In this document: positions 14,801 through 37,530 of the stretch, piece by piece
Layout: each line of letters opens with the position of its first letter
Position numbering within the stretch: the stretch's first letter is position 1
Origin: a bacterium
Lineage (GTDB): Bacteria; Oederibacteriota; Muellerivitia; Muellerivitales; Muellerivitaceae
Reading direction: 5' to 3'
DNA length: 64,000 nt
NCBI GenBank assembly: GCA_035549195.1
Contig: DASZRK010000017.1
Span: 310,001-374,000, forward strand
Program-made: the position numbers and the translations under genes
Notes under the pieces: model-generated
Databases searched by the model: none
The model's input: only the letters and a program-made list of their open reading frames with translations
Told to the model about the DNA's origin: nothing

Positions 14801-15145
14801 CGTCAAAGGATGGGGGTCACCCCCGAGCAAGCGGAGCTGGCCTTGGATTGGGTGAAAAAAGCCCTCCAGAGCGACTTGGTGAAAAGGGCCAAGAAGTCCG
14901 GACAGGCTTTCCGGGAATTGCCCATCACGGGCCGACAGGAGGACGGGTCCTACCTCAATGCGGTCATCGACCTGGCTTTCCTCGAGGACGACCAATGGGT
15001 CATCGTGGATTACAAGACCGATCAGGACCCCAAGAGGCTCGAGGCCAAATATAAGGAACAGTTGGGCTATTACGGAACGATGTTGGAGGCCTTCACGAAC
15101 AAGAAGGTCAAGGCGACGGAGCTTCTGTTCTTAAGGAAGCTTTGA
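11813..15145 (+). CDS. addA: AddA-like UvrD-family helicase/nuclease
   Basis: This 1110-residue protein is the helicase-nuclease subunit of an AddAB-type complex, which unwinds and resects DNA ends for recombination. Motifs in order are Walker A GAGTGKTT (Lys29), motif Ia AITFTEKAAAELAERLR, Walker B FVDEFQDTD (Asp364), motif III GDPKQSIYRFRRADV, motif V MTIHKAKGLEFP, and motif VI LLYVAATRARD. The C-terminal PD-(D/E)XK nuclease shows SFAHLLLEKG (about 972), VIDLAF, IVDYKTD (about 1065-1070) and KEQLGYYG. Residues about 77-89 (after the first helicase motifs) come from repeat-like DNA. No strong ribosome binding site is seen at 11813. The last 15 bp overlap the convergent glycosyltransferase gene. 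Confidence 0.92.
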   Translation: MISDQSVRESVIHDHDTLFAVDAGAGTGKTTLLVSRLIALLLEKQAPLSRIAAITFTEKAAAELAERLRSKLEEALGPVRPASLAQGDQSQEAVLARKTIILKALEDMERAPISTIHSFCAGLLREYPVEARVDPQFTLMDEVQSGAFENQAWDHWLKKNLAKPVEPLFQFLRLGGTFEHLDELKQFLKRNRTLLSPQPPKPLPSVKAFRDQWTAFVAMTKREAAQCAKHEDTLYEALEAFWSQCEAIEGDAKDIDFALANLKVPKVGNKGAQGNWGKDRLAALRDGFVRLADDHTKAFAPFKEAIVLNLVHWIGDYLKEWEEKKAQGGFLDFDDLLLKTRDLLRDHPEAREEIKGRLDYLFVDEFQDTDPLQVEIVFFLCEAPKRVEKNWKKVQLEPGKLFLVGDPKQSIYRFRRADVAIYEATKERIVANGGKVEILTENFRTVGGLVEWVNDRFTSQFEGTGIGYSPLNASREKGKTEGTLPILWGMKIPVPKEEKPSKALLRQLEAEAVATFLREHVLGGGFTVSDPKTHEKRPVRKGDIAILFRDLSNDNEEFWEEALRKRDLAYQIVGGKRFYNRPEIVALSTLLTCLSSPADEAACVAVLRGPLFGFSDEELFLHRAGGGSFHFLEHTKGKVGEAFRFLREWLEATRTLGVSDTLAKLYESTDLLAITAGQPHGEQRVANLMKVLDQARELETSQHFTYRAFVKWLTTQQEEGTMEGEAPGPDSTEDRTGALNDTGTVKSSASAGGLGADRITLMTIHKAKGLEFPLVFVSGIAADPKDSGSLVDRKHLAGAFKVGKVDLGLKTMNYDAVQEEEENQRKAEDTRLLYVAATRARDCLLLPLFQFPVGAKIQNENLFAGPLLKALEEKGAPVFWADAKETDASLGDPPAWVVPLDERPGKALDQEKEKLKVEQEARRKKLGSLRGAKQFKSVTSVLKVDADKQEREERVLEEPETSSPWGGKDLGSFAHLLLEKGWDWDDATLEKSADHYRQRMGVTPEQAELALDWVKKALQSDLVKRAKKSGQAFRELPITGRQEDGSYLNAVIDLAFLEDDQWVIVDYKTDQDPKRLEAKYKEQLGYYGTMLEAFTNKKVKATELLFLRKL
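12043..12076. repeat. Repeat-like insert inside addA
   Basis: CGTCCCGCTTCGCTCGCTCA followed by GGGTGACC reads on the other strand as GTCACCCTGAGCGAGCGAAG, a familiar dispersed bacterial repeat type. It encodes PVRPASLAQGDQ in a region of the helicase that is normally variable. It is a single copy in this window, so the family call rests on recall. Confidence 0.5.
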
Positions 15146-17179
15146 GGTTTCCGGGCCCGGGCGGCCTTCCATTGCCATCAATTCGCCGAATTTCTTCCGT
15201 AAAACATCATCCCGATAACTTTGCCGGTAAGCCGATGTGAAGACCCCCGAGAAGTTCTCCCACGAAGCCCAGGAATCCTCCGGATGGAAGGTCCTTTCCC
15301 AGGCGTAATGGTAAAGAAGCTTTTCAAAGAAGCAGGACTGCAGGAAGGGTTCCTTGGGAAGGGCGGGATAGGATCTCTTCAAGAGGTCCAGGATCCCCTT
15401 CCTGGACCTCCCATTCGAAAGGTCGGTGACCAGGAAATCGGCCTGCCAAAAGACCCGGAAGGCCGGCCACCAATCCTTATAGGAAGCCAGGTCGCCGTCG
15501 TGGAGGGGAAGGACGGCCAGGAACCGGTCACTCATCCTGCCCGGGACCTGGGATGGCAGGGGATTCCCCCTCAACCCCGGGAATTCCCGGACCATGGATG
15601 GAAGGTCATGCACCGGGGCCAGGAAGGCCAACCAACGGATCGACGGCGAAGGCTCCACGGGGAATTCCCGGGCGTCCGCCGGGAGGGTCATATAGGCCAG
15701 GGACATATCCGTCGAGTCCGGGACCAGCTCGGCGAAGAAGAAACCGGGACCCGAACCCGCCGAAAGGTCCGAAACCATCCAGAAGGCCTGGAATTTCTCC
15801 AGGCTTTTCCCGGTCGTGGAAAAAAGTCCCGGATGGCCGGGGACGTCCCGGTAAGGACGGATCAAACGGCCCAGGTCCCAGGCCCCGGAGACGGCCACCA
15901 AGGCCAGGGCCACCCACCCTTTCCCCGCTTTCGGGATGGATCCCAACAGCGTTTGGATCCCCACGGCAATGGCCAGCAGGATCAAGGGCAGGAGTTGAAA
16001 AAGACGGAAGGGCTCCACCACGGAGAAGAAAAGGGCCGGAAGGGTCCAGAGAAGGACCAATTGGAAAAAGACCTTTCCCCGGACGTCCTTCCAATTCCTG
16101 GCGAGGGCCAGGAGCCCCACCCCAAAAAGGCTTCCCGCCAAGGGGTTCAAGAAACCCATCTCCTGGGGGATGTAAGCCGCCGGGACCGGCCAGAAAAAGC
16201 AGCCGAAATAATCCTTGGCCATTCGCAGTGGACCCAGGAGGCCGGTCCCCCCCGAAAGGGACGAAGCGAGGATATGGCCGCCGTATTCCTCCCGTGTAAG
16301 GGCCCGTAGGAAGGGCGTCAGAGCCAATAGAAAACCGATCGCATAAGCCCCAAGGGGCCCCCGGCCGGACCGTTCCCTTAGGGTCGAGCCAAGGACCAGC
16401 AAGGTCATGCCGAAAGCGAAGATGGACCAGGTGGTGCAGACCAGGGAACCGGCCCCCAGGACCGATCCCAACAGGAAAGCCCGGACAAGGCGGGAAAGGA
16501 TCCTTTCCCGCGGCACGCCTTGGAACCAGCCCCAGCACCACCAGGACAGGCAGATCCATAGGAGCAGGAGGGACCAATCCAAACCGATCCGCCCCGATAA
16601 AAGGGGCCAATAACCCAGGGTGAATCCCGAGGCGATCAGGAACGAAAGCGAACGGGGAAAAAGGGTCCGGGCCGCCCAATAACCCATGGGCACGCATAAC
16701 GCTGAAGCCAAGGCGGGGGGGAACCAGAGGCTGAAAAGAGGGGAATGGGTCCAGCCCAACAGCAGGCCGATCAGGGAGATATAGGTCGGTGGGGATTGGT
16801 TGAATCCCCGGAAGAAGCCCCCCTCCGATCCCATGTTCCCGCAAAGGGCCAGGAACCCCCGGGTGGCTTCGTCCAGGCTCGGCCAGAGGAAGAGGGAAGT
16901 CAGGCCGGACATCCGGAGCGCGAAGGCGATGGAAAAAAGAAGGAGAAGCAGGGGCCATGGGACCGAAAAGGACTCGGCGTCCAAGGGACCTTTGGGGCCG
17001 CCGGACTTGGCGGAGGGCCATTTCTTCCAGAGGTAGAAGGCGGGAAGCCCCCAGCCGACCGCCAGGACGAGAGGCCTCCATGGAAAGGCGGGAGGATAGA
17101 CCAGCAACGAATTGGTCAGGAAAAAGCCCAGGAAAGGGACCCAAGGTCCACGAGGGATGGCCCCCCAGGAAGTCCTCAT
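15131..17179 (-). CDS. GT-C type membrane glycosyltransferase paralog 1
   Basis: A 682-residue polytopic protein with about ten to twelve membrane segments followed by a periplasmic C-terminal domain. It is the most divergent of six paralogs in this locus. Shared landmarks are LFLWPSLDEATRG (Asp103, Glu104, in the first outer loop where GT-C enzymes place the catalytic acid), GYWPLLSGR, GFLNPLAGSLF, VEPFRLFQLLP and, in the soluble part, SGPGFFF and IRWLAFL. GT-C enzymes of the ArnT/PMT type use polyprenyl-phosphate sugars. The TPR-like tail of the other paralogs is missing. It starts at an ATG overlapping the methyltransferase stop and is last in its operon. Substrates are unknown. Confidence 0.8.
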   Translation of the reverse strand: MRTSWGAIPRGPWVPFLGFFLTNSLLVYPPAFPWRPLVLAVGWGLPAFYLWKKWPSAKSGGPKGPLDAESFSVPWPLLLLLFSIAFALRMSGLTSLFLWPSLDEATRGFLALCGNMGSEGGFFRGFNQSPPTYISLIGLLLGWTHSPLFSLWFPPALASALCVPMGYWAARTLFPRSLSFLIASGFTLGYWPLLSGRIGLDWSLLLLWICLSWWCWGWFQGVPRERILSRLVRAFLLGSVLGAGSLVCTTWSIFAFGMTLLVLGSTLRERSGRGPLGAYAIGFLLALTPFLRALTREEYGGHILASSLSGGTGLLGPLRMAKDYFGCFFWPVPAAYIPQEMGFLNPLAGSLFGVGLLALARNWKDVRGKVFFQLVLLWTLPALFFSVVEPFRLFQLLPLILLAIAVGIQTLLGSIPKAGKGWVALALVAVSGAWDLGRLIRPYRDVPGHPGLFSTTGKSLEKFQAFWMVSDLSAGSGPGFFFAELVPDSTDMSLAYMTLPADAREFPVEPSPSIRWLAFLAPVHDLPSMVREFPGLRGNPLPSQVPGRMSDRFLAVLPLHDGDLASYKDWWPAFRVFWQADFLVTDLSNGRSRKGILDLLKRSYPALPKEPFLQSCFFEKLLYHYAWERTFHPEDSWASWENFSGVFTSAYRQSYRDDVLRKKFGELMAMEGRPGPETSKLP

Positions 17180-17841
17180 TTTCCGCCTTCCCTCTTCCGG
17201 CGGGTGAGGTAAAGCAGTTCGGAGCCGGTCAGGGTATAGGTGTGGCGGCTGGTCTCCCATTTTCCAGGCCAAGCTTTCGTGAAGATCCGCAAGAGCCCTT
17301 CCTGGTCCCGCATGTGGGCCCCCCGGTCGAAGCGGCGGATGAACCAGGCCATCGGCCGGGTCCAACCGTTCCGGGGCCAGACATCCTCCAGCACCACCAC
17401 CCGGCCTCCGGGTTTGAGGCAGCGACGCATCTCCTTCACCGCCTGTTCCAAAACCCTGTCCGGTAGATGGTGCAGGAAGCCCACCGCGCGGATCTCATCG
17501 AACGTATGGGCGGCGAAAGGAAGATGGTCCACCGAGGCCCGGTATCCCAGCCGGGTCCTTCCCTTCGGCGGCCGCGCCACGAGGCGCGGATCCCGATCGA
17601 GGGAACCGCCGGTGTAATCCCTGAGGAAAGCCTCATTGATATCCACTCCGACCAGCAGCCCCTTGGGTTCCGGGGTGACCAGCTTGGGGCCGCAGCCCAG
17701 GTCCAGCACCTTGCCGCGTGAATGCGGAAAGGCCAGGTCGAAGACCTTTTGGATCATCCAGGGTTTGCCGGGGGCGAGCAGGGTCTGGGAAAGGCGATAG
17801 ACCCAGGGAATATCGAGGATGGCATAAAGGCCTGGGCCCAT
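17176..17841 (-). CDS. Class I SAM-dependent methyltransferase
   Basis: A 221-residue methyltransferase of the Rossmann class. Motif I is KVLDLGCGPK, followed by the acidic strand end VGVDINEAF, the motif-II-like HTFDEIRAVGFLHHL and KEMRRCLKPGGRVVVLED. No membrane segment is present. It lies three bases after the GMC oxidoreductase gene and overlaps the GT-C gene by four, so it belongs to the glycan operon and may methylate a sugar or lipid intermediate. The target cannot be read from the sequence. Confidence 0.85.
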   Translation of the reverse strand: MGPGLYAILDIPWVYRLSQTLLAPGKPWMIQKVFDLAFPHSRGKVLDLGCGPKLVTPEPKGLLVGVDINEAFLRDYTGGSLDRDPRLVARPPKGRTRLGYRASVDHLPFAAHTFDEIRAVGFLHHLPDRVLEQAVKEMRRCLKPGGRVVVLEDVWPRNGWTRPMAWFIRRFDRGAHMRDQEGLLRIFTKAWPGKWETSRHTYTLTGSELLYLTRRKREGGK

Positions 17842-17844
17842 GGG

Positions 17845-19443
17845 TCAGTCCTTTCCGAAAGCTTGGTCGGCGATGCGGTAGGCGTTGCCCATGAGCAGGA
17901 GCCCGATGGTGGTGCCCGGAAGGGACGGGAAGATGGACGAATCCACCACATGGATGTTCTCCCATCCGGCCACCCTTCCCAAGCGGTCCGTCCGGAAGCC
18001 GCGGGGTTCCCCTTCGGTCATGGGCATCGTGCCGCCCACGTGGTAGGAACCGCTGTTGAGGCGGGCCAGGGGAAAAAGGGGAAGGCACCCGATGCGGCCG
18101 AAGACGCCCAAAAGCCGCCAGACGGTGGCCCCCAGCACGCCGAAGGAGGGCCACTTTTTCACGTGCCGGGAGACCAGGGTCGCCGGTTTCCCGTCGCCCT
18201 GCAGGGGCTCCAAGGACATCTCGTAGGTCCCCGAGTGGTCCGAGTGGTAATTAACGAACAAAAGGAAGAGGTGGCGGGAAAGGAAGCGCTTCAGGGCGGT
18301 CCAGGGCCCCTTCGCGTTCCCCAGGAGCCCCAGTTTTTTCAGGACCAATTCGTTCTCGGTGGAGACCTGCACATGGACCCAGTGCTTCAGGCCCCCGCCC
18401 TTGAGGTCGAGGAAGATCCCGGGTTCGGTGTTGCAGTCGGGCCATTGGGCCGGCAGGCCTTTCAGGCTCAAGGCCGGGAGCACGAAACCGCCCCGGGTTC
18501 GAAGGCGCATGGACGCGCCGAAATTCCCCTTCGAGGCCGCCACCAGGCGGGTGCTGTTCACCGCGCCCGCGGCCAGGAAGATCCGGTCGAAGGGTTCGGT
18601 CCGGACCGCGCCCTGGGCGTTCCGGTAGGTGACCAGGGCCTTCCCGCCTTCCTCCGCCAAACCTTCCACCAGGCAACCGGGGACATAATCCAGCTTGCCC
18701 TCTTTTTGGAGCCGGAGGATCTCGTCACCCGCCCGGAAGATGGAGCCATAGACGCAACCCGACATGCAGTGGCCGCAGTAGCGGCAAGCCTTCTCCCCTT
18801 GCGCCTGGATGAGCTGGCGGGCCCGTCCGAAGACGGTCCTACCCTTTTGAAGCAGGCCGGTCCGTCCCAAGGCCTCCAGCAAGGACCGACCCGCCACGCC
18901 CAAGCGCAGGGTCCCGGTGCCGGGGGAAAGGAGGGGGAAATCCAGGCTCAATCCGTCGTCCTCGGCCGAATAAGGAAGCCCCTCGAGCGCTTTCGCGCCG
19001 TAGGCGGCCAGTTCCCCGGCTTCGACGGGCCATCCTTCCAGGTCGCAAGCCTGCGGGGGAAGCACCGCTGCGCCCCAACCCGCGCTCAATCCCCCCAGGG
19101 CGTAGCTGAAGGGAGGCATGGTGTCCTTGGACTTGACCGGCGCCCCGGCCAAGCTACGGCCGTAGAAATACTCGGACCCGAATTCCCGCTTCTTGGGGAT
19201 CCCGGACCCGTCCTTTGGGGTCCCGTCGGGCGTGAGCCAAACGCGCTGTTCGGGGGTCCATTGGGAAGGCTCCACGGCGGCCATTTGGGCGGCCTTTTCC
19301 TCCCGGTCCTTCTCCAGGCGTTCGCCACGGTCCAGGACCACGGGTTTGATCCCTCGCGCGATCAATCCCTTCACGGCCCCGAGCGCCGCCAGGCCGCTGC
19401 CGATGACCGCCACCCGGAGGGTCCCTTCCATGTTGGCGTTCAT
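17845..19443 (-). CDS. GMC-family FAD oxidoreductase with Cys cluster
   Basis: A 532-residue flavoprotein of the glucose-methanol-choline family. The FAD-binding motif VAVIGSGLAALGA starts near residue 11. The C-terminal GMC domain has GSYHVGGTMPM and VVDSSIFPSLPGTTIGL. Around residues 217-228 it carries CRYCGHCMSGC, a ferredoxin-like Cys arrangement known in a GMC subgroup often found in surface-polysaccharide loci, whose reaction I do not know. No signal peptide is seen, so it is cytoplasmic. It overlaps the aminotransferase gene by four bases. A sugar oxidation step making a keto group for transamination is plausible but unproven. Confidence 0.82.
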   Translation of the reverse strand: MNANMEGTLRVAVIGSGLAALGAVKGLIARGIKPVVLDRGERLEKDREEKAAQMAAVEPSQWTPEQRVWLTPDGTPKDGSGIPKKREFGSEYFYGRSLAGAPVKSKDTMPPFSYALGGLSAGWGAAVLPPQACDLEGWPVEAGELAAYGAKALEGLPYSAEDDGLSLDFPLLSPGTGTLRLGVAGRSLLEALGRTGLLQKGRTVFGRARQLIQAQGEKACRYCGHCMSGCVYGSIFRAGDEILRLQKEGKLDYVPGCLVEGLAEEGGKALVTYRNAQGAVRTEPFDRIFLAAGAVNSTRLVAASKGNFGASMRLRTRGGFVLPALSLKGLPAQWPDCNTEPGIFLDLKGGGLKHWVHVQVSTENELVLKKLGLLGNAKGPWTALKRFLSRHLFLLFVNYHSDHSGTYEMSLEPLQGDGKPATLVSRHVKKWPSFGVLGATVWRLLGVFGRIGCLPLFPLARLNSGSYHVGGTMPMTEGEPRGFRTDRLGRVAGWENIHVVDSSIFPSLPGTTIGLLLMGNAYRIADQAFGKD

Positions 19444-20687
19444 GACCGATCCTTGAAAAGGGACCGGACGGCCCCGGCGATGCGTTCCATGTCCTCATCG
19501 GTCAAATGCGGGAAGCAGGGAATGAAGAGGCCGTGGTGATAGAGCCTCTCGGCCTCGGGCATGGGGGCGGCGTTGGGATAGTCGGGGAGGTCACTGATGA
19601 GTTCCAGGCTGGAGGTGGCCGAGTCGATGCCTTCCCGGGCCAGGGCCCGTTGGGCGGCGCGGGCGTCGGGGACGGGCAGGATGAGCTGCCAATAGACGTT
19701 GCGGGAAACGGGCGTGGTCGCCGGGAAGGGCGCCCCGGGGCAATGGCGTTTGAGGAAGTCCACGTGGGCTACGCGCGAGCGATCAATGGCCTCCACCCAG
19801 GGAAGGCGCTCCTTCCCGATGCGGGCCTGGAGCGACGTGTAACGCCGGAACCAAAGGTCGGGCAGGGCCTTCAGACGGCCTTTGGCGCGGTGGCCCGTTT
19901 GCTTGAGGGCGGCTTCCGGGTCCTTCCATTCCAGCAAACGCAGGAAGGGGAAGGTGAAGATCGAGAAGAAGGGCTGGGTGGTGGCGAGGTTCCGGACCAG
20001 ATTGGTCCAGGCCTTCCGGACGAGCCATCCCCGGCTGGGCGGCGCGAGGCCTTCCTGCGCCCGCCGCAACTTCGCGGCCAGGGCGTCGTCGTCGGTGACG
20101 GCCATGCCGCCGCCCAAGGTGTCGAGGGTCTTGATGGAGGAGGAACTATAGACCGAAAGGTCGCCGAAAGTGCCGACCTTCCGTTCGCTCAGGCGTCCGT
20201 TGAGGCATTGGGAAAAATCCTCGATGACGAAGAGGCCCCGCCCCTTCAGGAAGGCGCAAAGGTCCTCCAGGTCGGGTACCAGGCCGAAGAGCGGGGTCAC
20301 CAGGGCCACCCGCACCTGGGGCCCGAGTTTTTCCTCCAAGCCTTCCCGGCGGAAGCAGGCAGTGGCGGGGTCCAGGTCCGCGTAGACGGGGACCAGGCCG
20401 AGGTCCACCACCGCGTCCAGGATGCCCTTGATGGTGATGGGGGGCATGAGGACCTGGGAACCCTCGGGAAGGTCCAGGGTCTTCAGGGCCGCATGGATGG
20501 CGGTGCGGGCGAAGGGGAAGGCCACCGCGTGACGCCGGCCGATGTAGCCCGTGAAGGTCCTTTCCCAATCCTCCACCCGGTCCTTTTCCTCCAGTGGCGC
20601 CAAGAGGGAAAGGAAGAGGTAACGGAAGCTTTGGGAAAGGGAATGGTAGATGACCCCGCGGGGGATCTTTTTACGCAAAGGGTTCAT
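19440..20687 (-). CDS. DegT/DnrJ/EryC1/StrS-type PLP aminotransferase
   Basis: A 415-residue fold-type I PLP protein of the DegT family, whose members usually make amino-sugar nucleotides. The PLP-binding features are VIEDFSQCLNG (Asp157) and the Schiff-base lysine Lys186 in SSSSIKTLDTLGGG. The N-terminal 40 residues, with the hydrophobic SQSFRYLFLSLLAPL segment, are longer than usual and could form a membrane-facing helix. It overlaps both flanking genes by four bases. Differences from the WecE-like enzyme at 21337 suggest another substrate. Confidence 0.83.
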   Translation of the reverse strand: MNPLRKKIPRGVIYHSLSQSFRYLFLSLLAPLEEKDRVEDWERTFTGYIGRRHAVAFPFARTAIHAALKTLDLPEGSQVLMPPITIKGILDAVVDLGLVPVYADLDPATACFRREGLEEKLGPQVRVALVTPLFGLVPDLEDLCAFLKGRGLFVIEDFSQCLNGRLSERKVGTFGDLSVYSSSSIKTLDTLGGGMAVTDDDALAAKLRRAQEGLAPPSRGWLVRKAWTNLVRNLATTQPFFSIFTFPFLRLLEWKDPEAALKQTGHRAKGRLKALPDLWFRRYTSLQARIGKERLPWVEAIDRSRVAHVDFLKRHCPGAPFPATTPVSRNVYWQLILPVPDARAAQRALAREGIDSATSSLELISDLPDYPNAAPMPEAERLYHHGLFIPCFPHLTDEDMERIAGAVRSLFKDRS

Positions 20688-21250
20688 CGGAACTCCAGGG
20701 AGTAGGCGTCGGCCAGGCCCAGGACGCCGCGGTGCCCCAGGATGCGGCCATATTCCTGAAGGACGGCCAGTTCCCTCATGGGCGCGAGCCGGGCGGCGGC
20801 GTGGGCTTGGGGGCGGCCCAAAAGGACCATGCCCATTTTGTTGAGAAAACCCCGGCGGCTGATGCCCACCACCAGGCGGGGTCGAGGGGACCGCCCCTTC
20901 AGTTCCTCCAGCAGGGACCGGAGGTCCCCTTCCTGGAACGAGTAGAAGACCTCGTTGGCCACCAGCACGTCGAAAGGAACGGCCCGCCAGTCGGGCACCT
21001 CGGTCAGGTCGGGACGGATGTCATAGCCTGTGACCAGGGCCCCAGGGAGGAGTTTTTTCAGTTCGCCCCCGCCACAGCCGAAATCGAGGATCCGCAGGCC
21101 CGGCCTGTGAAGCTCCCCCACCCGGATGACCGCGCGAAGAAGGCTCCGGAAATAGAGTTGGGAGAGGCCGGAATAAAGGGTCACGCCCCATTTTAGGGGC
21201 GGGCCGATAGGACGGGAAAGCCCGTCCACCGGGCTCTTTTGGATGGGCAA
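20684..21250 (-). CDS. Short SAM-dependent methyltransferase
   Basis: A 188-residue methyltransferase with motif I LRILDFGCGGGE, the acidic end TGYDIRPDL and a FDVLVANEVFYSF segment. It is shorter than most of the class, ending soon after the fourth or fifth strand. The basic, hydrophobic first 45 residues may associate with the membrane. It is first in the minus-strand unit and diverges from the WecE-like gene across 86 bp, where promoters for both directions must lie. Confidence 0.75.
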   Translation of the reverse strand: MPIQKSPVDGLSRPIGPPLKWGVTLYSGLSQLYFRSLLRAVIRVGELHRPGLRILDFGCGGGELKKLLPGALVTGYDIRPDLTEVPDWRAVPFDVLVANEVFYSFQEGDLRSLLEELKGRSPRPRLVVGISRRGFLNKMGMVLLGRPQAHAAARLAPMRELAVLQEYGRILGHRGVLGLADAYSLEFR

Positions 21251-21336
21251 GGCCTTGGGAAGGCGTTATCTTGGAAAGCACCGGCCTTTCCAGATCCCCT
21301 GAGGCCACGAGGAGAGAACGCCCCCCGGCTGGCCCC

Positions 21337-22479
21337 ATGAACGCTCCCATCCCTTTCCATCAACCGATCCTGGCCGGGAACGAACTTCGTTACGTCGAGG
21401 AGTCCCTGAAGAGCGGCCGGTTGGCCGCTTCCGGCCCCTTCTCCAAGAAGGCTTCCACCTTTCTGAGGGAGCAACTGGGAGCCGCCGAGGTCTTCCTGAC
21501 CACCTCCTGCACCGACGCCCTGGAAATGGGCGTCCTTCTGCTCGGCCTGGAGCCCGGGGACATCGCCATCCTGCCTTCCTTCACCTTCGTTTCCACCGCC
21601 CTGGCCCTGGTGCGCCGGGGGGTGAAACTCATCTTTGCCGACATCGAGCGGGAGACCTTCGGCCTGGACCCGGCCCATGTGGCAGAACTCCTCGACGACA
21701 AGGTCAAGGTGATCGTGCCGGTCCATTACGCCGGGGTGGCCTGCGACCTGGCGGGGATCGAGAAGGTCCTTGGGGGACGCCCCATCGACCTGATGGAGGA
21801 CAACGCCCAGGGCCTCTTCGCCTCCTATCAAGGCAAGCCCCTGGGGAGCCGGGGACGGATCTCGGCCCTGAGCTTCCATGAGACCAAGAACCTCACCTGT
21901 GGCGAGGGCGGGGCCCTGGTGGTCAACCGGACCGCCGATCTGGACCGCGCCCACCTGCTTTACGACAAGGGGACCAACCGCCGGGCCTTCCAATTGGGCC
22001 AGGTGGACAAGTATTCCTGGGTGGATGAAGGCTCTTCCTTCGGGCTCTCGGACCTTTTGGCCGCGGCCCTTTGGGCCCAGTTGGAACAGCGGGACGCCAT
22101 CCAATCCCGGCGCAAGACCCTCTGGGGTCTCTACCACTCGCTTTTGACACCCGCGGCGGCCCGGCTGGGCTTCCAGGTGCCCCGTGTACCGCCGGACCGG
22201 GAACAGCCTTATCATATGTACTACGTGTTGCTGAAGGACCGTTCGGAACGGGACCGGGTCCTGAAGGCCCTGGGAGACCAGGGCATCCAAGCCACCTTCC
22301 ACTACACCCCGCTGCATTCGGCGCCGGGTGCCAAGAAGCACCTGGCCCGTCCCACCGATTGCCCGGTCACCGAGGAAGTGAGCGGGAGGCTGCTGCGCCT
22401 TCCCTTCCACAACGCCCTCACCGACGACCAGGTCCGCCGGGTCGCCGCCACCTTCCTGGAGGCCTTGGAGAGACCATGA
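21337..22479 (+). CDS. WecE/RffA-like sugar-nucleotide aminotransferase
   Basis: A 380-residue DegT-family enzyme closest in motif order to WecE/RffA, which makes dTDP-4-amino-4,6-dideoxygalactose from the 4-keto sugar. Similarity starts at IPFHQPILAGNELRYVEESL and continues through TTSCTDALEMG, PSFTFVSTALALV and VPVHYAGVACDL to the PLP lysine Lys184 in SFHETKNLTCGEGG. The ATG at 21337 fits the family start. The stop overlaps the GT2 start by four bases, so amino-sugar synthesis and lipid-linking are coupled. Exact stereochemistry and substrate are not provable here. Confidence 0.88.
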   Translation: MNAPIPFHQPILAGNELRYVEESLKSGRLAASGPFSKKASTFLREQLGAAEVFLTTSCTDALEMGVLLLGLEPGDIAILPSFTFVSTALALVRRGVKLIFADIERETFGLDPAHVAELLDDKVKVIVPVHYAGVACDLAGIEKVLGGRPIDLMEDNAQGLFASYQGKPLGSRGRISALSFHETKNLTCGEGGALVVNRTADLDRAHLLYDKGTNRRAFQLGQVDKYSWVDEGSSFGLSDLLAAALWAQLEQRDAIQSRRKTLWGLYHSLLTPAAARLGFQVPRVPPDREQPYHMYYVLLKDRSERDRVLKALGDQGIQATFHYTPLHSAPGAKKHLARPTDCPVTEEVSGRLLRLPFHNALTDDQVRRVAATFLEALERP

Positions 22480-24530: not shown

Positions 24531-24574
24531 GGGGCCATTCTAACCGGACCGGGGGCCGCCGGGGAGGGGGCCGG

Positions 24575-29058: not shown

Positions 29059-29067
29059 TCCCCTATT

Positions 29068-31203
29068 CTACCGAGCGGTCCCCGGACTTTGCTCCTTTTC
29101 CGGGACGGAGCCCGGAGGCGGAGAGCCGCGCCGTAACCGGTCGAGCAATCCGGGCGGGGGCTTGAAGAGGGGATCGAGGCGCCCGGCTTCCAGGAAATTC
29201 CCGCAGGCCTTCTTGTATTCGCCGCCCTTCACCTGCAGCACGGCGAGGCGGTGCAACAACGCGGCGCGCCGGAGGCCGGAGCGAAGGGTCCTTTCCAGGG
29301 TCCCACGGGCGGCCCCGGCCTGTCCGGCCTCCAGTTCGAAGGCGGCCAATTGGTCCCCATAGACCGAGACCTTCCAAGGATCGTCCTGGAAATAGGTCCG
29401 CCCCTCCCGCAAGGCCTCCAGCACCATGGTCCGGTCCCCCTGGGCGGGCCGGTTCAATTCCTGGAAAGAGGCTTCCCGCAGGCAGCGTTCTGCGGCGATC
29501 CATGACGCCAGGGAGGTCCGCTCGCCTCCGCCGACCCGCACCAGGCGTAGCCGCAAATGGTGGACCCATTGGAGTCCCTCCGAAAGGTCCTCGGGCCAGG
29601 GCCCCAGGTCCGCCGCCGAGGATCGGGGAAAGCGCCGGGAAAGGTAGGTGTCCTCATCGTCCCATTGGAAGAAGGCCATCCACCGCACCTGGGCGGGATC
29701 CAAAGCCGGATTCCCGCAGGCGTCGAAGGGATAGGCCGCCACGGCCAGGGTCCGGTCGTTGGAGGCGATCCGGTCGGCGAAGAGGACGGCGCCGGGACCC
29801 TGCTCCTTCGCCAGGGGCGCCAGGGCCTGGTAGGCCTCGTAAAAGGGATAGGTCTTGAAGTTCTTCGCCCAATCCCCCGTATTTCCCCAGGCGGAAGGAT
29901 AGACCTTGAAAAGGTGGAAGGCGGAGAGACTTGTGATGGCCAAAAGAAGGGCGGCCAGGAGCCAGGGCCTTTGAACGGCCGGGCGGCCGGCCAAAAGCAC
30001 CGAAGCCCCCCGGGCCGCGGCCACGAGCAGGAGGGGAAGCAGGGGGATGATCCGGAAGGTCTCCAGGTCGTGGGTGAGCAGGCCGGGCAAGAGGAAGATC
30101 GGGATGCCCAGGAGCACCCAAAGGGCCAGGCCACGGCGTTCGCGGAGCATTCCGGCCAGCCCTAAAAGCGCGAGTGCGCCGGTCAGGGGATCGAGCAATC
30201 CACCCCAATAGGGTTTGTAGGCGAAGTAGTCCAGATGAAGTCCCCAGAGAAGGGCGTCCAGATAGAGGCCCATGGAGTGGAAAGGTCCGCCGCTCCCGGC
30301 GGTCGGTGCCGTGAGGTCATGAAGGTAATCGCCATAGGACGAGCGCAGGACGGCGAGAAACAACGGGAATGGGATCAAAAGGACGGGCAGCAGGAAACCC
30401 GCAAGGATCGGCGTCCTGGGCTCGCGGGAAGGAAGACCCCGCAGGATCTTGAGGAAGGCCAAGGCCGTGAGGAGCGCCACGCCGGGCCAGTGCAGGTGGG
30501 TGTAGAAACCCGAACCTACGACCCCGCCCAAGAGCAGGGCGCGGGAAATTCCCGGGCGCCGTTGGAAGAAGGCGAGGGCGACCCAGGCCAAAAGTTCCCA
30601 GACCAGCACCAGCAGGCCTTCCACGGTGAAATGTCCCGCATAGAGGGGCCAGAAGCCCAACGCGCCGAAGGCCGCGGCCAGGAAGGCTTGTGATCGGCCC
30701 AGGGCCAGGCGGGCCGCCAGGGCTCCCAGTCCCAGGGCCGCCAGCGACAGCACCAGCGCGAAACCGCCGATGGCCGGGAGGGAGGGGGGAACGAGACGAA
30801 GGAAAAGGGAGAAGAGCCAGTAAAAGAGAGGGGGCAGCTGGTTGTATCCATAAAGAAGTTTCCAGTCCCAATGAAGGTCCTGCCGCAGGGCGAAATAGGC
30901 GGTGCGGCCTTCATCCAGGTTGGGCCAGGGAGAGAGGTCGCCCGAGCCGTGGAGCCGCAGGAGCAGGCCGCTTAAGAACAGGGCACCCCAAGTCCCAAGG
31001 GGGATGGCCCGGAAGGGTTCCGGATCCTTGCGCCCTTTGTCGGTTGCCGGCGTCCGGCAACCGAAAAGGAAAATTCCCAGGACGCCGATCTCCAAAAGGA
31101 CTTGGATGATGAAAGGGACCGGGACCCAGGCCCGAAAGGCCAGGAGGGCGGCCAGTCCGAGGAAGATCCATTCGGTCCTAAGGGTCCGGTGGGAAAGGGT
31201 CAT
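29068..31203 (-). CDS. GT-C type membrane glycosyltransferase paralog 3
   Basis: A 711-residue polytopic protein whose start overlaps the upstream stop by four bases. Landmarks are SPWPNLDEGRT (Asp97, Glu98), LGFWPLYAGHF (His in place of the usual Arg), YKPYWGGLLDPL, LETFRIIPLLP, and in the soluble domain QGPGAVLF and QVRWMAFF. The C-terminus contains a clear TPR-like pair (AALLHRLAVLQVKGGEYKKA, then NFLEAGRLDP). The tail GSVPEKEQSPG is polar. Expected to act on the periplasmic face with a lipid-linked sugar. Donor and acceptor unknown. Confidence 0.83.
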   Translation of the reverse strand: MTLSHRTLRTEWIFLGLAALLAFRAWVPVPFIIQVLLEIGVLGIFLFGCRTPATDKGRKDPEPFRAIPLGTWGALFLSGLLLRLHGSGDLSPWPNLDEGRTAYFALRQDLHWDWKLLYGYNQLPPLFYWLFSLFLRLVPPSLPAIGGFALVLSLAALGLGALAARLALGRSQAFLAAAFGALGFWPLYAGHFTVEGLLVLVWELLAWVALAFFQRRPGISRALLLGGVVGSGFYTHLHWPGVALLTALAFLKILRGLPSREPRTPILAGFLLPVLLIPFPLFLAVLRSSYGDYLHDLTAPTAGSGGPFHSMGLYLDALLWGLHLDYFAYKPYWGGLLDPLTGALALLGLAGMLRERRGLALWVLLGIPIFLLPGLLTHDLETFRIIPLLPLLLVAAARGASVLLAGRPAVQRPWLLAALLLAITSLSAFHLFKVYPSAWGNTGDWAKNFKTYPFYEAYQALAPLAKEQGPGAVLFADRIASNDRTLAVAAYPFDACGNPALDPAQVRWMAFFQWDDEDTYLSRRFPRSSAADLGPWPEDLSEGLQWVHHLRLRLVRVGGGERTSLASWIAAERCLREASFQELNRPAQGDRTMVLEALREGRTYFQDDPWKVSVYGDQLAAFELEAGQAGAARGTLERTLRSGLRRAALLHRLAVLQVKGGEYKKACGNFLEAGRLDPLFKPPPGLLDRLRRGSPPPGSVPEKEQSPGTAR

Positions 31204-33305
31204 GGGGCGGCTCCGCCGGTCTTGGCCCCGCCCAGGTCGCGGAGGCGTTGGGCCGCGTCGGTCAGGTCCAGCGGCGCGCGACGGGCCTTTTGGAAGAGGG
31301 CTTTCGCCTCGGCTGGGCGGCCCTGGAGCATTTCCAGCACGCCTCCCTCCCGCAAAAGATGGGCGGCGGGGTAGCCTTCCCGCGCGGCCCTTTCCAGGTC
31401 CTGGACGGCTTCGGTCCATCCGCCGGTCCCTCCCTTGACGCGGACGTCGGCCAATTTTTCCCAGTAGCAGGCCCGCAGATAAGGGTCGCCCTGGAAGGCG
31501 GGCTCGATCTTTTCAAGCGCCCGGATATCCCCTTCCATCGGATTTCCCATCACGTAGCAAAGATGCCGGTCCAGAAAAGGTTCCAGGGCCTGTTGGGCCT
31601 CGACCCAGTGCCGCAGGGTCCCCGCCGGGACCCCTTGGGTGGGAAAGAGGAACAGCATCCAGCCGCCGTCCCCCGAAGGGAGTTCCCGGGTGAGGGCATA
31701 GGCCCTGCCGGAAGGGAACCGCTTCTTAAGGAAGGGTTGGTAGTTCACGTTGGTCAGCACCGCCGCCCAACGGGCTTGGGACGCCTGGAGCCGCGGGTTC
31801 AAGACCGCGTTGTAGTCGAAGGTCGCCACCGCCAGGGACTGGTCGGGAAGCCCCCCGACGAAATCGGGAAAGATCAGGCCGGGTCCTTCGGCTTTCCGTT
31901 GTTCCTCCAGGAGGCCGAAGGCGTGGTAACGCCCGAAGGATTTGGTATAGGAGGACCAGGTCGGGGGGTCGTCCCAGACCCGGTGGAAAACGCCGAAGAG
32001 ATGATGGCCGTCCAAGGCCAGGGAAGGAACGGCCAGGGCCAGCACCAGGACCAACGAACGCTTGGCGGGAAAACCCTGGGCCAGTATCCCGAGCCCCATC
32101 AGGCAGGTGAGGATGAGGAAGGGGACCATGGGAAAAAGCCGGAAGGTCTCCTGGTCCTGGGTGAGCAGCCCGGGCAGCAGCGAGACCAAAAGGCCGAAGA
32201 TCACCCAGCGTTCCAAGGGTTCCTTCCGGCGCCGCGCCAGGCGCAGGCATCCCAGGAAGAAAAGGGAGGTGAGCACGGGGTTCAGGAAGCCGCCCCAGAC
32301 CGGCTGGTAGGTATGAACGGCCGGGTCCATGCCCCAGAAGGGCGACGTGAGGCAGGAACTCCAGACGGCCCATTGCCGGGACCAGGAAAAACCAGGATGG
32401 GCCACGAAGAGATGGGCCAGGTAGCCGCCGAAATGGCCCCGCCAGGCGGCGATCCCCAGGGGCAGGGCGAGGATCAGGGCCGGCAACAGGGCCGCGCCAA
32501 GCAGTTGTCCGGAGGAAGAAGGGCGTTGTCGGCGTCCTTTCCAAAGATGAAGGGCGAAGGGAGGAAAGGTCACGGCCAGCACCACGGGCCAATGAAGATG
32601 GGTGTAACAACCCAGCCCCCAGGCGACGCCGAGCCCCCAGGCGGCTTTACGGCGCGCGCCGGCGTCCAAGGCGGTGAGAAAACGCCCCAGGAAATAGAAG
32701 GCCAAGAGCTCGGCGGGCAGGACCAGCCCGGTCATGAGGGCGAAGCGCCCCACGAAAAGGGGCCAGAAGGAAAGGGCTGTCAGCCCCGCGGCCAGGAAGG
32801 CGAAGGGCCGGGGGAAGAAGGTGCGCGCGGCCAGGTAGGCCAAGGGGACCGCGCTCAGCGAGACCAGCGCGGGGAAGGCCCAGAAGGCCGGGAGCGAACA
32901 GCCGAAGAGCTTGAAGAAGGCCGCCAGGCCCCAGATGAAAAGGGGCGGGGCCTGGCTGACGCCGTAGAGGAAGCGCGGCGCTTCGCCCGAAGCCAGGCGG
33001 AAAGCATCGAAGCCGTAGGAGGATTCGTCGAAATTGGGCCAGACCAACAGGGTCGTCAGTCCGGAAAATCGAGCGGCGACGGCCAGGAGACCCAGGAGGG
33101 CGAAGGCGATCCAGCCGGGCTGGAAACCGTCCTTTTTCCCCGCCGGGGCTTGCACCGGGAGGTCCCTTTGGCGAAAGGCCCAAAGCCAGGGGAGCAGAAC
33201 CCCCAGGAGGAGTATCCCGATCTTCCAGCCGATGGAAAGGGGGACATAGGACAGCAAGCCATTGGCCATCCACAGGACCAGAAAGAGCGGGAAAGAATGT
33301 TTCAT
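31200..33305 (-). CDS. GT-C type membrane glycosyltransferase paralog 4
   Basis: A 701-residue polytopic protein. Landmarks are LLVWPNFDESSYG (Asp93, Glu94), LSFWPLFVGRF, YQPVWGGFLNPVL, QETFRLFPMVP, EGPGLIF and QARWAAVLTNVNYQPFL. The C-terminus ends with a TPR-like helix pair (GGVLEMLQGRPAEAKALFQK) and ARRAPLDLTDAA, which is almost the same in paralog 5 and recognisable in paralog 6. These three form a closer subgroup, probably from tandem duplication. It overlaps both neighbours by four bases. Confidence 0.84.
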   Translation of the reverse strand: MKHSFPLFLVLWMANGLLSYVPLSIGWKIGILLLGVLLPWLWAFRQRDLPVQAPAGKKDGFQPGWIAFALLGLLAVAARFSGLTTLLVWPNFDESSYGFDAFRLASGEAPRFLYGVSQAPPLFIWGLAAFFKLFGCSLPAFWAFPALVSLSAVPLAYLAARTFFPRPFAFLAAGLTALSFWPLFVGRFALMTGLVLPAELLAFYFLGRFLTALDAGARRKAAWGLGVAWGLGCYTHLHWPVVLAVTFPPFALHLWKGRRQRPSSSGQLLGAALLPALILALPLGIAAWRGHFGGYLAHLFVAHPGFSWSRQWAVWSSCLTSPFWGMDPAVHTYQPVWGGFLNPVLTSLFFLGCLRLARRRKEPLERWVIFGLLVSLLPGLLTQDQETFRLFPMVPFLILTCLMGLGILAQGFPAKRSLVLVLALAVPSLALDGHHLFGVFHRVWDDPPTWSSYTKSFGRYHAFGLLEEQRKAEGPGLIFPDFVGGLPDQSLAVATFDYNAVLNPRLQASQARWAAVLTNVNYQPFLKKRFPSGRAYALTRELPSGDGGWMLFLFPTQGVPAGTLRHWVEAQQALEPFLDRHLCYVMGNPMEGDIRALEKIEPAFQGDPYLRACYWEKLADVRVKGGTGGWTEAVQDLERAAREGYPAAHLLREGGVLEMLQGRPAEAKALFQKARRAPLDLTDAAQRLRDLGGAKTGGAAP

Positions 33306-35347
33306 GGAGCCACCCCCTTCAAACGCGCCAGGTCCAGGGCGGCATGGGTGAGGTCGAGCGGGGCCCGATGGGCCGCCGCATAATCCCGCAGGGCGGATCG
33401 GGAGTCCCCGGCGAGTTCCTCATAGACCCCCCTGCGCCAGAGCAGGTTGGCCGCGGGGAAGGCTTCCGTCATCGCCCGGTCCAGGGCCTCCCGGGCGGAA
33501 CGCGGGTCCCGGAAGCCCGAGGAACGGAAGACCAGGTCCGCGGATTTCTCCGCATAGACCGCCCTGAGGAAGGGATCCTCTTCGAAAGCGGAACGGACTT
33601 CCAGCAACGCGCGCAGTTGATAGGGCGGGTCCCATTGGGGATGGGGAGAGTCGGCTTGGGATGCTTCCATCCACCGTTGGAGCGCAGGCCGGTCCCTTTC
33701 TTCCACGGGAAAGACCCAAAGCATCGATCCGCCGTCGGGCCGGTCGAGGTCCTGCGACAAGGCATAGGCCTTCCCTTTGGGGAAACGCCGGAGGAGGAAA
33801 GGGCGGTAGTTGACGTTGGCCAGCACGGCGGCCCAGGAGGATTGGGCCGGGTCCAACCTGGGATTTTCCAGGGCGTTGAAAGGGCGATCCAGGACTTCCA
33901 GGCTCACATCGCAAAGGCCGGGCATGAAGCGGGTGAAGACCAGTCCGGGACCTTTTTGCGCCGCCAGGGCCGTAAGTCTTTCAAAGGCCCGGGACCTCTC
34001 GGGCGACCGGGAATAGGCTTTCCAGCCTTCGGGCCTTCGGCAGAACCCTCCATAGGCTGTTTGAAGATGGTATTGATCCAGGGCGGCGAAGGCCAAAGCG
34101 GAAAGGATGAGGGCCGCGAGCGCGCGTTTTTCGGGGAAAGAAGTGAGCCATCGTTCCCAACCCAGGGCGCCGAGCAGACCCAAGGGCGCCAGGACCGGCA
34201 GCACCCGGAAAGGCTCCAGGCTGTCCGTCGCCATCCCAGGAAGAAGGAAAAGGACCAAGGCGCAAAGGGTCCAAAGGCCCAGGGAATCCTTCCGCGTCCG
34301 GAGCGTTCCGATCCCCAGCAGGACAAAGGAGGATAGGACCGGGTCCAGGAACCCGCCCCAGACCGGACGGTAGGGACCTTGGGCCGGGTCCGTTCCCCAG
34401 AACAGGGTGGTCAGATAGGAAAGGGGAATGGAAAGGTCCGGGTGCGGCGAATGCCAGGCCCCCGCTTGGGTGTAGGTCCGCCAGGCCTCCATCCAACCCG
34501 CCAGGAGCAAAGGCAGGAACAGGACCAAGGCGCCGCCGAGGAACCACAGGGCGGGTCCCAGGTCCCGGCGTTTTGGGGCCGACCAGATCACGAAAAGCGT
34601 GCAGGCGCCCAAGAAACCAATGGGCCCGCAGGAAATGAAGATATAAAGCCCGGAAACGGTGGCCATTCCCATCCCGAAAGCCGCCCATCCGGACAGTGCG
34701 CCTTTCCTTATATAAAGGCCCAAAAGTCCGAAGTAGGCGCATTCCCAAAGCGATACTGAAACCATTTGGTCGGCGAACCTCCCGATGAAAAGAGGCCAAA
34801 ATCCAAAGGACAGGAAAAGGCAAGCCAAGAAAGAGAGGAAAGGTGGAAAGAATTGTCGGGCCGCCCAATAGCCGATCCCGACCGTCAAGGCGGACAGGAA
34901 GGCCGGATAGGCCCAGAGGGAGAAAAGCGACGGGCCGGCCGTCCGGAAAAGAAGGTCCAATCCCCAAAGGTGGGTGGTGGGGAAGTTCGAATCCAGGAAG
35001 AGCGGCCAGACCGCGGCCTCATGGAACTTAAGGGCCATCCATCCCCAAAGGGCGTCATCGTAACAGGGCCACACCGAGAGGGAATCCAAACGAAAAAAAC
35101 GGAAAGCCAGCCCCAAGATCAAGACGACCATGACGGCCCATCCGGGAATATGGAAAGGGCCAGGCCCGGGCGCCGGGATGGGCCTTCGCCCATCCCAAAG
35201 GCAGGTGAGCCCCAGGCCCGAAAGGCCGACGATCCAGTGCCAGGGACCCAGGCCGGACCCGAAGGACAAGAGGGAATTGAAAAAGAGGAAGGACAGGAAT
35301 GGCCCATGCAGGGAAAAGGGTTTGTTGGAGGAGGGCGCGGGTGCCAT
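33302..35347 (-). CDS. GT-C type membrane glycosyltransferase paralog 5
   Basis: A 681-residue polytopic protein. The first-loop acid pair is Asp97-Asp98 (SVWPCYDDALWG) instead of Asp-Glu, so the second acid is conserved only in charge. Other landmarks are FGFWPLFIGRF, YRPVWGGFLDPVL, LEPFRVLPVLA, KGPGLVF and QSSWAAVLANVNYRPFL. The C-terminal TPR-like pair (RRGVYEELAGDSRSALRDYA) and HRAPLDLTHAA match paralog 4. The gene is 36 bp from paralog 6 and overlaps paralog 4 by four bases. Confidence 0.84.
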   Translation of the reverse strand: MAPAPSSNKPFSLHGPFLSFLFFNSLLSFGSGLGPWHWIVGLSGLGLTCLWDGRRPIPAPGPGPFHIPGWAVMVVLILGLAFRFFRLDSLSVWPCYDDALWGWMALKFHEAAVWPLFLDSNFPTTHLWGLDLLFRTAGPSLFSLWAYPAFLSALTVGIGYWAARQFFPPFLSFLACLFLSFGFWPLFIGRFADQMVSVSLWECAYFGLLGLYIRKGALSGWAAFGMGMATVSGLYIFISCGPIGFLGACTLFVIWSAPKRRDLGPALWFLGGALVLFLPLLLAGWMEAWRTYTQAGAWHSPHPDLSIPLSYLTTLFWGTDPAQGPYRPVWGGFLDPVLSSFVLLGIGTLRTRKDSLGLWTLCALVLFLLPGMATDSLEPFRVLPVLAPLGLLGALGWERWLTSFPEKRALAALILSALAFAALDQYHLQTAYGGFCRRPEGWKAYSRSPERSRAFERLTALAAQKGPGLVFTRFMPGLCDVSLEVLDRPFNALENPRLDPAQSSWAAVLANVNYRPFLLRRFPKGKAYALSQDLDRPDGGSMLWVFPVEERDRPALQRWMEASQADSPHPQWDPPYQLRALLEVRSAFEEDPFLRAVYAEKSADLVFRSSGFRDPRSAREALDRAMTEAFPAANLLWRRGVYEELAGDSRSALRDYAAAHRAPLDLTHAALDLARLKGVAP

Positions 35348-35382
35348 CGGGGCATTCTAGCCTATAAAGGACGGACCCAGCC

Positions 35383-37530
35383 TCATTCCCCCGAGGGCTC
35401 CAACAACAGGGCGGCCCCCGTCATGGCGGGGGCCGTGTGGACCGCCCGTCGGAAGTCCCTTTGGGCCGCGGCTCGGCGGCCCAAAAGGGACTCCAGGGCG
35501 CCCCGCCGGTAATAAAGGTGCGCCGCGGGGATCCCTTGGGTGATGGCCCGCTGCAGGTCGTCCAGGGAGGCGATCAGATCTTCCTTCGGCAAGGCGCCCG
35601 GCACTAGGGCCCCATTGACGGGTTCGGCCAGGGCCCTTCCGGCGCCTTGGGCCTGGGAAGCACCGAGGGCCGCTTCGAAACGCAGGCGCGAGGATTTTTC
35701 CCAATAGAAAGCACGCAGGAAAGGATCCCCCTGGAAGACGGGCGCCAGGGCCATCCAAGCCCCTTGCAAGCGGTCAGGGTCCTCCCCCGGCCGCTTTTCC
35801 ATTTCCATGCGGTTCCAGGACCGGAGGCTTCGTGAAGCCTGGATCCAAGGGTCGAAGGAACTGGCCCCTCCCGGGGGCAGGTCCCAGATCCAGACCATCA
35901 GGCCACCCTCGGCAGGCCGGGTTCCCTTATCCAGCCAGACCGCCCGACCTCCTGGGAAACGGGAGTCGAGCCATGGTTTGTAGTTGGGATTGGTCAACAA
36001 GGCGGCCCAATGGGCCTGGCCGGGCGATGATCGGGGATCTTCCAACAGGTTGAGATCGTAAACGCACGCAGGAAAATAAGAAAGGCGGGGCCCCCCCAAA
36101 AAGAAACCGTCGAAGATCAACCCGGGCCCATCCTTCGCCGCTTTATCCCGCAAGAGCTCCGCGGCCCTCGCGAATTCAGCGGGTCTTTGGGTCGGAAAGG
36201 CGTTACGCAGGGCTTGTCCCGAAGCCGATAGGCATCGCAGGTCCATCCCGAAAGAGAGCGATCCCACCAGGACCGCGATCCACCCGATCCTGCCACCACT
36301 CACCCCACGGGGCAGGGACACAATGCCCATGGCGCAGAGATAGGCCGCCAAGGGCATCCAGGGGATCAAACGCAAGCCGTTGATGGGCCGGGTAAAAGCC
36401 AGGGGCAGGAGGGCGAGAGCGGCAACCACCGCCAAAAAAATGGAAAAAAGGCGCGGTTGGACCTTCCATGCCGCCGCCGCACCCAGGAAGAACAGCGCCC
36501 CGCCGATAGGGTTCAAATAACCGCCCAAGGCCGATCCATAGGTGAATCCACCGACCGGATCTCCTCCGAAGATGATACGAAGATAGGACGCGGCCCCCTG
36601 GAAGAAGATGGTTCCGGGGTCCGTTCCTTGGGCCCATAAGCCGTGGAAATAAGAGCCGAAATGTTCCCGCCAGGCCACCGGAACCACCGGGAACAATGGG
36701 ACCAGGGTCCAAAACGCCAATTGGATGTTCTTCCATACGCGGGTCTTTTCTTTTCGGGCGGGTTCCCAAAGGACCGAAGCGAGAAAAAGGGGACCGGCGA
36801 AAAGGGGCCACGCGAAATAAGTGTAAAAACCCGATCCGAGGACCAACCCCAGGCCCGCCCTCCAAAGCCCGCTCCGCGGGGGAGTGGATCCAAGGAACCT
36901 CGCCAGGACCCAGAGGGCGAGCCATTCCCAAAAATATCCCAAGGCGGCTTGATGGGAAAACCGGCCCAGATAAAGGGGCCAAAAGCCGATGCTGGTGAAA
37001 AAGAAGAGGGCCAGGGAAAGGGACCTGGAAAAAAAGGAACGGGCGGCGGCATAGGCCAGGAGCGACGCCCCCCAGCTAAGAAGGGCGGGCACCAGCCAAA
37101 GGCTGCATAAGGAGGGGGAGATCTTGAAGGCCAAGGCCAGAAGCCAGATATAAAAGGGCGGGAGCTGAGAAGTGAAGAAAAAGGGATGCCAGCCCCAATG
37201 ACGGGTCAGACCCAAGGCGTAAAAGGCGTTCAATCCCTCGTCCAAAAGAGGGAATCCGATGTAGGTTTCCAGGTGCCACAGCCTCAGGCCAAGGCCCGAA
37301 AGGAGCAGGAAGGCCCAGATCCATCGGGCGACCGGCGCGGGAATATCTCCGGCCGGCGATGGTTTTTCCATGCGGAAGATAAGGATAAGACCCGCCCCCA
37401 AGAGCAGGGCGGCCGGGAGGATGCCTAGGGGACCCGCCGGGCCGAAGACCCGCCAGGCGTTCCCCAAGGTGATGGCAAGGAAGGGGACCAAGGGCCGGTG
37501 GGTCTTGAGGAAGGATTGGGCGGGGAACAT
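35383..37530 (-). CDS. GT-C type membrane glycosyltransferase paralog 6
   Basis: A 715-residue polytopic protein and the first gene of the long minus-strand operon. Landmarks are IGFPLLDEGLN (Asp97, Glu98; the family Trp is Phe), IGFWPLYLGRF, ALGGYLNPIGG, DGPGLIF and QAHWAALLTNPNYKPWL. Instead of the E-x-FR motif it has RPINGLRLIP. The C-terminal YYRRGALESLLGRRAAAQRD is the TPR-like pair shared with paralogs 4 and 5. The 57-bp gap to the divergent trmL gene must hold the operon promoter. Confidence 0.83.
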   Translation of the reverse strand: MFPAQSFLKTHRPLVPFLAITLGNAWRVFGPAGPLGILPAALLLGAGLILIFRMEKPSPAGDIPAPVARWIWAFLLLSGLGLRLWHLETYIGFPLLDEGLNAFYALGLTRHWGWHPFFFTSQLPPFYIWLLALAFKISPSLCSLWLVPALLSWGASLLAYAAARSFFSRSLSLALFFFTSIGFWPLYLGRFSHQAALGYFWEWLALWVLARFLGSTPPRSGLWRAGLGLVLGSGFYTYFAWPLFAGPLFLASVLWEPARKEKTRVWKNIQLAFWTLVPLFPVVPVAWREHFGSYFHGLWAQGTDPGTIFFQGAASYLRIIFGGDPVGGFTYGSALGGYLNPIGGALFFLGAAAAWKVQPRLFSIFLAVVAALALLPLAFTRPINGLRLIPWMPLAAYLCAMGIVSLPRGVSGGRIGWIAVLVGSLSFGMDLRCLSASGQALRNAFPTQRPAEFARAAELLRDKAAKDGPGLIFDGFFLGGPRLSYFPACVYDLNLLEDPRSSPGQAHWAALLTNPNYKPWLDSRFPGGRAVWLDKGTRPAEGGLMVWIWDLPPGGASSFDPWIQASRSLRSWNRMEMEKRPGEDPDRLQGAWMALAPVFQGDPFLRAFYWEKSSRLRFEAALGASQAQGAGRALAEPVNGALVPGALPKEDLIASLDDLQRAITQGIPAAHLYYRRGALESLLGRRAAAQRDFRRAVHTAPAMTGAALLLEPSGE

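Follow-up and report, generated by a model that had tools for sequence, protein, structure and literature searches.

Introduction

The closest described counterparts of the locus reported here are glycosyltransferases of the GT-C type and the systems built around them. ArnT transfers aminoarabinose to lipid A and is represented by the structures 5ezm and 5f15, whereas PMT (GT39) and the animal proteins TMTC1–4 (GT105) are protein O-glycosyltransferases; the latter have an acid pair in the first loop, and their TPR, placed after the GT-C part, lie outside the cytoplasm (PMC7801869). The Pfam family PMT_2 (PF13231) comprises bacterial GT-C proteins. In the Gtr system, composed of GtrA, GtrB and a Gtr GT-C, the O-antigen is glucosylated, and three-component periplasmic glycosylation of this type with seroconversion provides a precedent for surface variation (PMC11127046).

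We analysed a 64,000-nt stretch of DNA (the window) within contig G000:C17 of a draft genome of 3.2 Mb that is 97.9% complete and whose named relatives (GTDB) are metagenome-assembled genomes of the candidate division/phylum FCPU426. The literature found on this candidate phylum describes little beyond its occurrence, and searches on the phylum together with glycosyltransferases, and on tandem GT-C expansions, returned nothing relevant. The proteins encoded in the window define a GT-C family that is distinct in its arrangement of domains, confined to one taxonomic family of this barely studied candidate phylum and present in up to 21 copies. The family combines an ArnT/PMT-type fold with a TMTC-like end that has far fewer repeats; its role may be Gtr-like, and it does not show the full set of defining features of any one of these systems.

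An array of six homologous membrane proteins

Codon-usage gene calls gave six family genes in the window, all on the minus strand: p1 (15131–17179, 682 aa), p2 (24575–26710, 711 aa), p3 (29068–31203, 711 aa), p4 (31200–33305, 701 aa), p5 (33302–35347, 681 aa) and p6 (35383–37530, 715 aa). Their scores against the family profile were 708, 735, 746, 849, 783 and 729 bits, respectively, and p1, which adjoins addA, is the most diverged of the six. All pairs are homologous by BLASTP (27–38% identity, E = 7e-16 to 1e-99; best E with shuffled sequences 0.47), which bears out the original prediction of six homologous membrane proteins of 681–715 residues. The same prediction had listed a line of shared landmarks, and all of them are present, albeit in a looser form than written and with substitutions, notably in p1 and p6. 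The acid motif starts at residues 89–99 and reads WPSLDE, WPLTDE, WPNLDE, WPNFDE, WPCYDD (p5, residue 93) or FPLLDE (p6, residue 93); the loop landmark is [FY]WP[LF]xxG[RH][FI]; YxPxWGGFLNP is degenerate in p1 and p6; and GPGxx[FL] and a W-A motif complete the series.

The genes are tightly packed. Overlaps of 4 nt join p5 to p4, p4 to p3 and the gene starting at 26707 to p2, and p6 and p5 are 35 nt apart. Judged from this spacing, p6, p5, p4, p3, a membrane protein gene, p2 and a gene for a 119-aa protein read as a single unit, and p1 reads as the last gene of a second unit with a methyltransferase, a GMC oxidoreductase, a DegT-type and a further methyltransferase gene. The gene that separates p3 from p2 (26707–29001, minus strand) encodes a large multi-pass membrane protein (764 aa, or 783 aa with a start at 29058) that has no match in Pfam or NCBIfam, looks YfhO-like by eye, and is about 29% identical to a protein of genome G001 that likewise adjoins a family gene.

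Fold, topology and C-terminal domain

AlphaFold (AF2), with the window and relative sequences as its only input, gave confident models of p4 (pLDDT 90.2, pTM 0.90) and p1 (pLDDT 87.2, pTM 0.90). The leading Foldseek matches in the PDB were all GT-C proteins (ranks 1–24 for p4 and 1–30 for p1); ArnT (5f15, 5ezm) came first for both models and was followed by PMT, oligosaccharyltransferases, ALG12 and arabinosyltransferases. The TM-scores to ArnT are moderate (0.41–0.46 by query length, 0.51–0.56 by target) and therefore indicate the same superfamily rather than the same enzyme, the identity over the structural alignment being only 11–13%. When the membrane part was used as a profile, no solved GT-C protein was matched at the sequence level and the only matches were chance ones to gp41, so that the assignment of the fold rests on structure comparison and Pfam. 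In Pfam, PMT_2 matched p2 (3.6e-7) and p4 (9.7e-6) above the gathering score and p3 (3.3e-5) slightly below it, with no match for p1, p5 and p6; across the family, 17 of 30 members matched at E ≤ 1e-3 over about 150 residues directly after the acid motif. Taken together, the proteins are almost certainly GT-C glycosyltransferases, as had been predicted. At E ≤ 1, no NCBIfam model matched five of the six, ArnT (GT83) included, and p6 had a TPR-type match only; neither PF02366 of PMT nor MIR matched any of the six in Pfam at the same threshold.

In the p4 model, two N-terminal helices are followed by a loop (46–64), a third helix (65–80), the acid pair (93–94) and a C-terminal domain from residue 446, with about 13 long helices in total. 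This order of helices, together with a charge bias (17 K/R in 82 residues assumed to be inside against 13 in 205 outside), fits an N-in topology in which the acid pair and the C-terminal domain would be periplasmic. Number of helices, an acid in the first periplasmic loop and a C-terminal periplasmic domain are all reminiscent of ArnT; in contrast to ArnT, the proteins end in TPR, and relative to PMT_2 proteins they add two N-terminal helices and a C-terminal domain of their own. It is this C-terminal combination of an alpha/beta domain with a short TPR that sets the family apart. A TPR-like hairpin at the end of most of the proteins had been predicted, and it is real at the family level: the family profile matched consensus TPR structures (E = 6e-18), and residues 608–675 of the p4 model form consecutive helices. 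Individually, however, only p4 has a Pfam TPR match (E = 0.003), that of p6 being marginal (E = 0.87).

The main rival to the function that we propose below takes this end as its starting point. The proteins would then be protein O-glycosyltransferases like PMT and animal TMTC, in which the short periplasmic TPR recognizes exported proteins and each copy has its own set of clients. TPR domains often bind peptides, and Pmt4 is among the best structural matches. The succession of a GT-C part and a C-terminal TPR is moreover the layout of TMTC (PMC7801869), although only about 2 repeats are present here compared with about 10 in TMTC, the alpha/beta domain is extra, and neither DUF1736 nor MIR matched any of the six.

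Distribution of the family and conserved residues

This genome holds 15 full-length copies, 9 of them outside the window. In eight genomes, all from one taxonomic family, a profile built from the full-length copies gave 15, 19, 20, 7, 8, 17, 6 and 21 matches at E ≤ 1e-45, and the 37 other genomes of the phylum gave none. Some of the matches are fragments cut off by the end of a contig, and the count of 7 comes from a genome that is only 65% complete. The rest of the phylum yielded partial matches only, over the membrane core; the full-length relatives found are thus from one taxonomic family only, a further difference from PMT_2 proteins. With p4 alone as the query against the genome contigs, no relative was found. 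After removal of duplicates, 107 members from the eight genomes were analysed; an alignment of all 15 copies of this genome was too diverse for a pattern search, and a tighter alignment was used instead.

The acid pair, which had been put forward as a family hallmark, is indeed carried by all six proteins, and its leading Asp is near-invariant in the relatives. The first Asp of WPxxD[ED] (D93) is kept in 102 of the 103 scorable rows of the 107-member set and is followed by Glu in 81% and Asp in 16%, with DA, DV, DP or DQ in a few members. Although identity within the family is about 30%, R79 (0.96), R389 (0.97), W513 (0.97) and D607 (0.98) are near-invariant as well. One could regard the proteins as degenerate, non-enzymatic GT-C-like membrane proteins that serve as scaffolds or sensors, as the very high divergence and the few members without DE might suggest. 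Given the retention of the leading Asp, the other near-invariant polar residues and a dN/dS far under 1, we consider this very improbable.

Position 118 is more variable (Q 63%, E 13%, R 7%). Where ArnT carries the Lys of its EKPP motif, the family has Q, E or R. This variation bears on the combinatorial system that had been envisaged for the array, in which the copies would add the same or a related lipid-linked sugar, each to a different acceptor. This genome has 7 mostly distant GT2 matches (E ≤ 1e-6) against 15 GT-Cs, as might be expected if donors were shared. However, GT2 matches at that threshold are no proof of donor synthesis, donor specificity is not readable from sequence, and position 118, which lies near the presumed donor site, varies, so that this model, taken as one sugar for all copies with only the acceptor differing, appears unlikely.

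The copies are old and kept in place

In the family tree, p6 groups with genes from the arrays of G007 and G002 (support 1.0), p5 clusters with G002 L036 and G007 L024 (0.999), and p4 is joined by a gene of G002 (0.98). Of the remaining three, p2 and p3 form a sister pair (0.999) and p1 branches far away. The subgroup of p4–p6 that had been proposed is recovered as one clade (support 0.97), which nevertheless also contains genes of other genomes. An origin of p4–p6 by recent tandem duplication was rejected, as orthologs in other genera are closer than the neighbours in the array. Chromosomal positions are kept too: p1-like genes of G001 and G002 adjoin addA or lie close to it, the same situation as in the window, and a tandem pair next to a gene for a TPP enzyme (TPP-synthase) and a copy next to the RF3 gene occupy the same positions across several genera. 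The dN/dS values (0.14–0.53) show that the copies are under purifying selection. The conserved positions and the orthology across genera mean that the copies are old, in line with the earlier view of them as ancient and retained paralogs.

At fourfold sites, four array GT-Cs differ between G002 and G007, which belong to the same genus, by 0.95, 0.75, 1.13 and 1.03, and the second member of the tandem pair at the TPP locus by 1.15, the larger of these values being imprecise owing to saturation. By comparison, the values for genes that lie between or beside them on those contigs are 0.12–0.66 (with a wide interval for the 119-aa gene, 0.42–1.23), and the first member of the TPP-locus pair, at 0.50, resembles its flanks. 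At several positions the synonymous sites of the GT-Cs are thus about twice as diverged as the genes between them, and this raised divergence suggests that several slots hold alleles older than their surroundings. Our preferred reading is replacement of alleles by recombination, but hidden paralogy could also produce the pattern. For the raised divergence, a fixed division of labour among the copies is no better an explanation than an exchange of alleles of the kind seen in surface loci.

The arrays of G002 and G007 also contain a separate PMT_2 protein of 504–517 aa (L056:8283–9797 and L062:2998–4551), which is kept in both and was not seen in the array of the window, and large proteins without a Pfam match lie between their members (L057:9179–11434, L057:554–2128 and L062:8951–10801).

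Glycan-type genes next to the array

The genes beside p1 and p2 look like functions for the modification of sugars or lipid carriers. On the minus strand, p1 overlaps by 4 nt with a class I methyltransferase gene (17176–17841; Methyltransf_11, 1.5e-12), beyond which lie genes for a GMC-type FAD oxidoreductase (17845–19443; GMC_oxred_C, 1.1e-6), a DegT/DnrJ/EryC1 sugar aminotransferase-like protein (19440–20687; 9.6e-43) and a methyltransferase (20684–21250; Methyltransf_23, 4.4e-7). On the plus strand follow a second DegT-family aminotransferase (21337–22479; 9.4e-78), an ArnC/GtrB-like polyprenyl-phosphate sugar synthase of the GT2 type (22476–23429; Glycos_transf_2, 2.1e-30), whose best curated match is NF007986 (ArnC; 3.3e-51, under the equivalog cut-off), and a sulfotransferase (23401–24174; Sulfotransfer_3, 2.7e-15).

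Comparison with other genomes limits what these neighbours can say. The ArnC-like, DegT, sulfotransferase and GMC genes do not occur in the arrays of G001, G002, G005 or G007, and close ArnC homologs are absent from several genomes at E ≤ 1e-25. A conserved donor-sugar operon was therefore rejected as the function of the array, and sugar genes that other arrays do not share cannot define the role of the GT-C family; the ArnC-like, aminotransferase and sulfotransferase genes may be local cargo. The resemblance to the Gtr system is partial. In both, GT-Cs would diversify a surface glycan, and a GtrB/ArnC-like gene is at hand in this window only; unlike Gtr, however, there are many GT-Cs per genome, the donor gene is not kept with the arrays of the family in other genomes, and no flippase, GtrA-like or otherwise, was recognized among the window genes scanned.

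When the solo copies were checked for a common neighbour, those neighbours that could be identified proved to have housekeeping or unrelated functions (RF3, TPP enzyme, sulfate permease and HemE). Glycosylation of exported proteins guided by the TPR would require no glycan locus at such sites, which speaks for that alternative; on the other hand, the array on the addA side is accompanied here by glycan-modifying genes, and no client can be named. On balance, we find protein O-glycosylation doubtful.

Proposed function

We favour the reading, at a probability of about 50%, that the proteins are periplasmic transferases that use polyprenyl-phosphate sugars and decorate and diversify a surface glycan. 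The family has expanded within one bacterial family that is related to candidate phylum FCPU426, and each protein would probably lie in the inner membrane, its N-terminus facing the cytoplasm. Below the first periplasmic loop, a cavity would receive a sugar, probably carried on polyprenyl phosphate; with the Asp of WPxxD[ED] as a putative catalytic base, the sugar would then pass to an acceptor, which the alpha/beta and TPR domain would hold in place on the periplasmic side. The likeliest acceptor would be a surface glycan, LPS or another exopolysaccharide, either as its repeat units or in a lipid-linked form. By analogy with serotype-specific Gtr proteins, the copies may differ in the linkage or position that they set, in which case gain, loss and replacement of copies would alter the surface.

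Several observations speak for a surface-glycan role, namely the overlap of p1 with the methyltransferase/GMC/DegT unit, the adjacent ArnC-like, DegT and sulfotransferase genes, and the presence of LpxC (lipid A synthesis) in all nine genomes searched. Against it count the many solo copies that lie by housekeeping genes (RF3, TPP enzyme, HemE) in no glycan context, the lack of a named donor or acceptor, and, as described above, the unshared sugar genes and the failure to recognize a flippase among the window genes scanned. Hidden paralogy as an alternative source of the high fourfold divergence, and the first copy of the TPP-locus pair, no more diverged than its flanks, count against it too. 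A more specific version, in which the copies form a hypervariable repertoire for surface glycosylation and GT-C alleles at fixed slots are swapped between lineages by recombination through conserved flanks, is put forward only tentatively. If it is true, a serotype-like diversification exists in an uncultured lineage with 6–21 TPR-bearing GT-Cs per genome. Should the copies set the structure of a surface glycan, these fixed slots with their unusually diverged alleles would lend themselves to the study of how acceptor specificity evolves in GT-C enzymes and of how an uncultured bacterium varies its surface.

A conserved companion gene and other genes of the window

The unit from p6 to p2 ends with the gene for the 119-aa companion protein (24171–24530, minus strand), which has a weak match to PF05635 (23S_rRNA_IVP; 2.2e-4). 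Seven of the eight genomes of the taxonomic family carry the gene once each, and it was absent from all 52 other genomes searched. The protein is 55–77% identical to its homologs and is far better conserved than the surrounding GT-Cs. In G000, G001, G002, G005, G006 and G007, the coordinates place its gene inside or near family genes; in G004, some 18 kb separate the two. An export signal is not obvious in the protein, which is thus probably cytoplasmic.

Elsewhere in the window, the plus strand encodes a histidine kinase of 1571 aa with about 8–9 PAS domains (44712–49427), and the minus strand a protein in which a DUF2231 membrane part and a cytochrome P460 domain appear to be fused (49434–50390).
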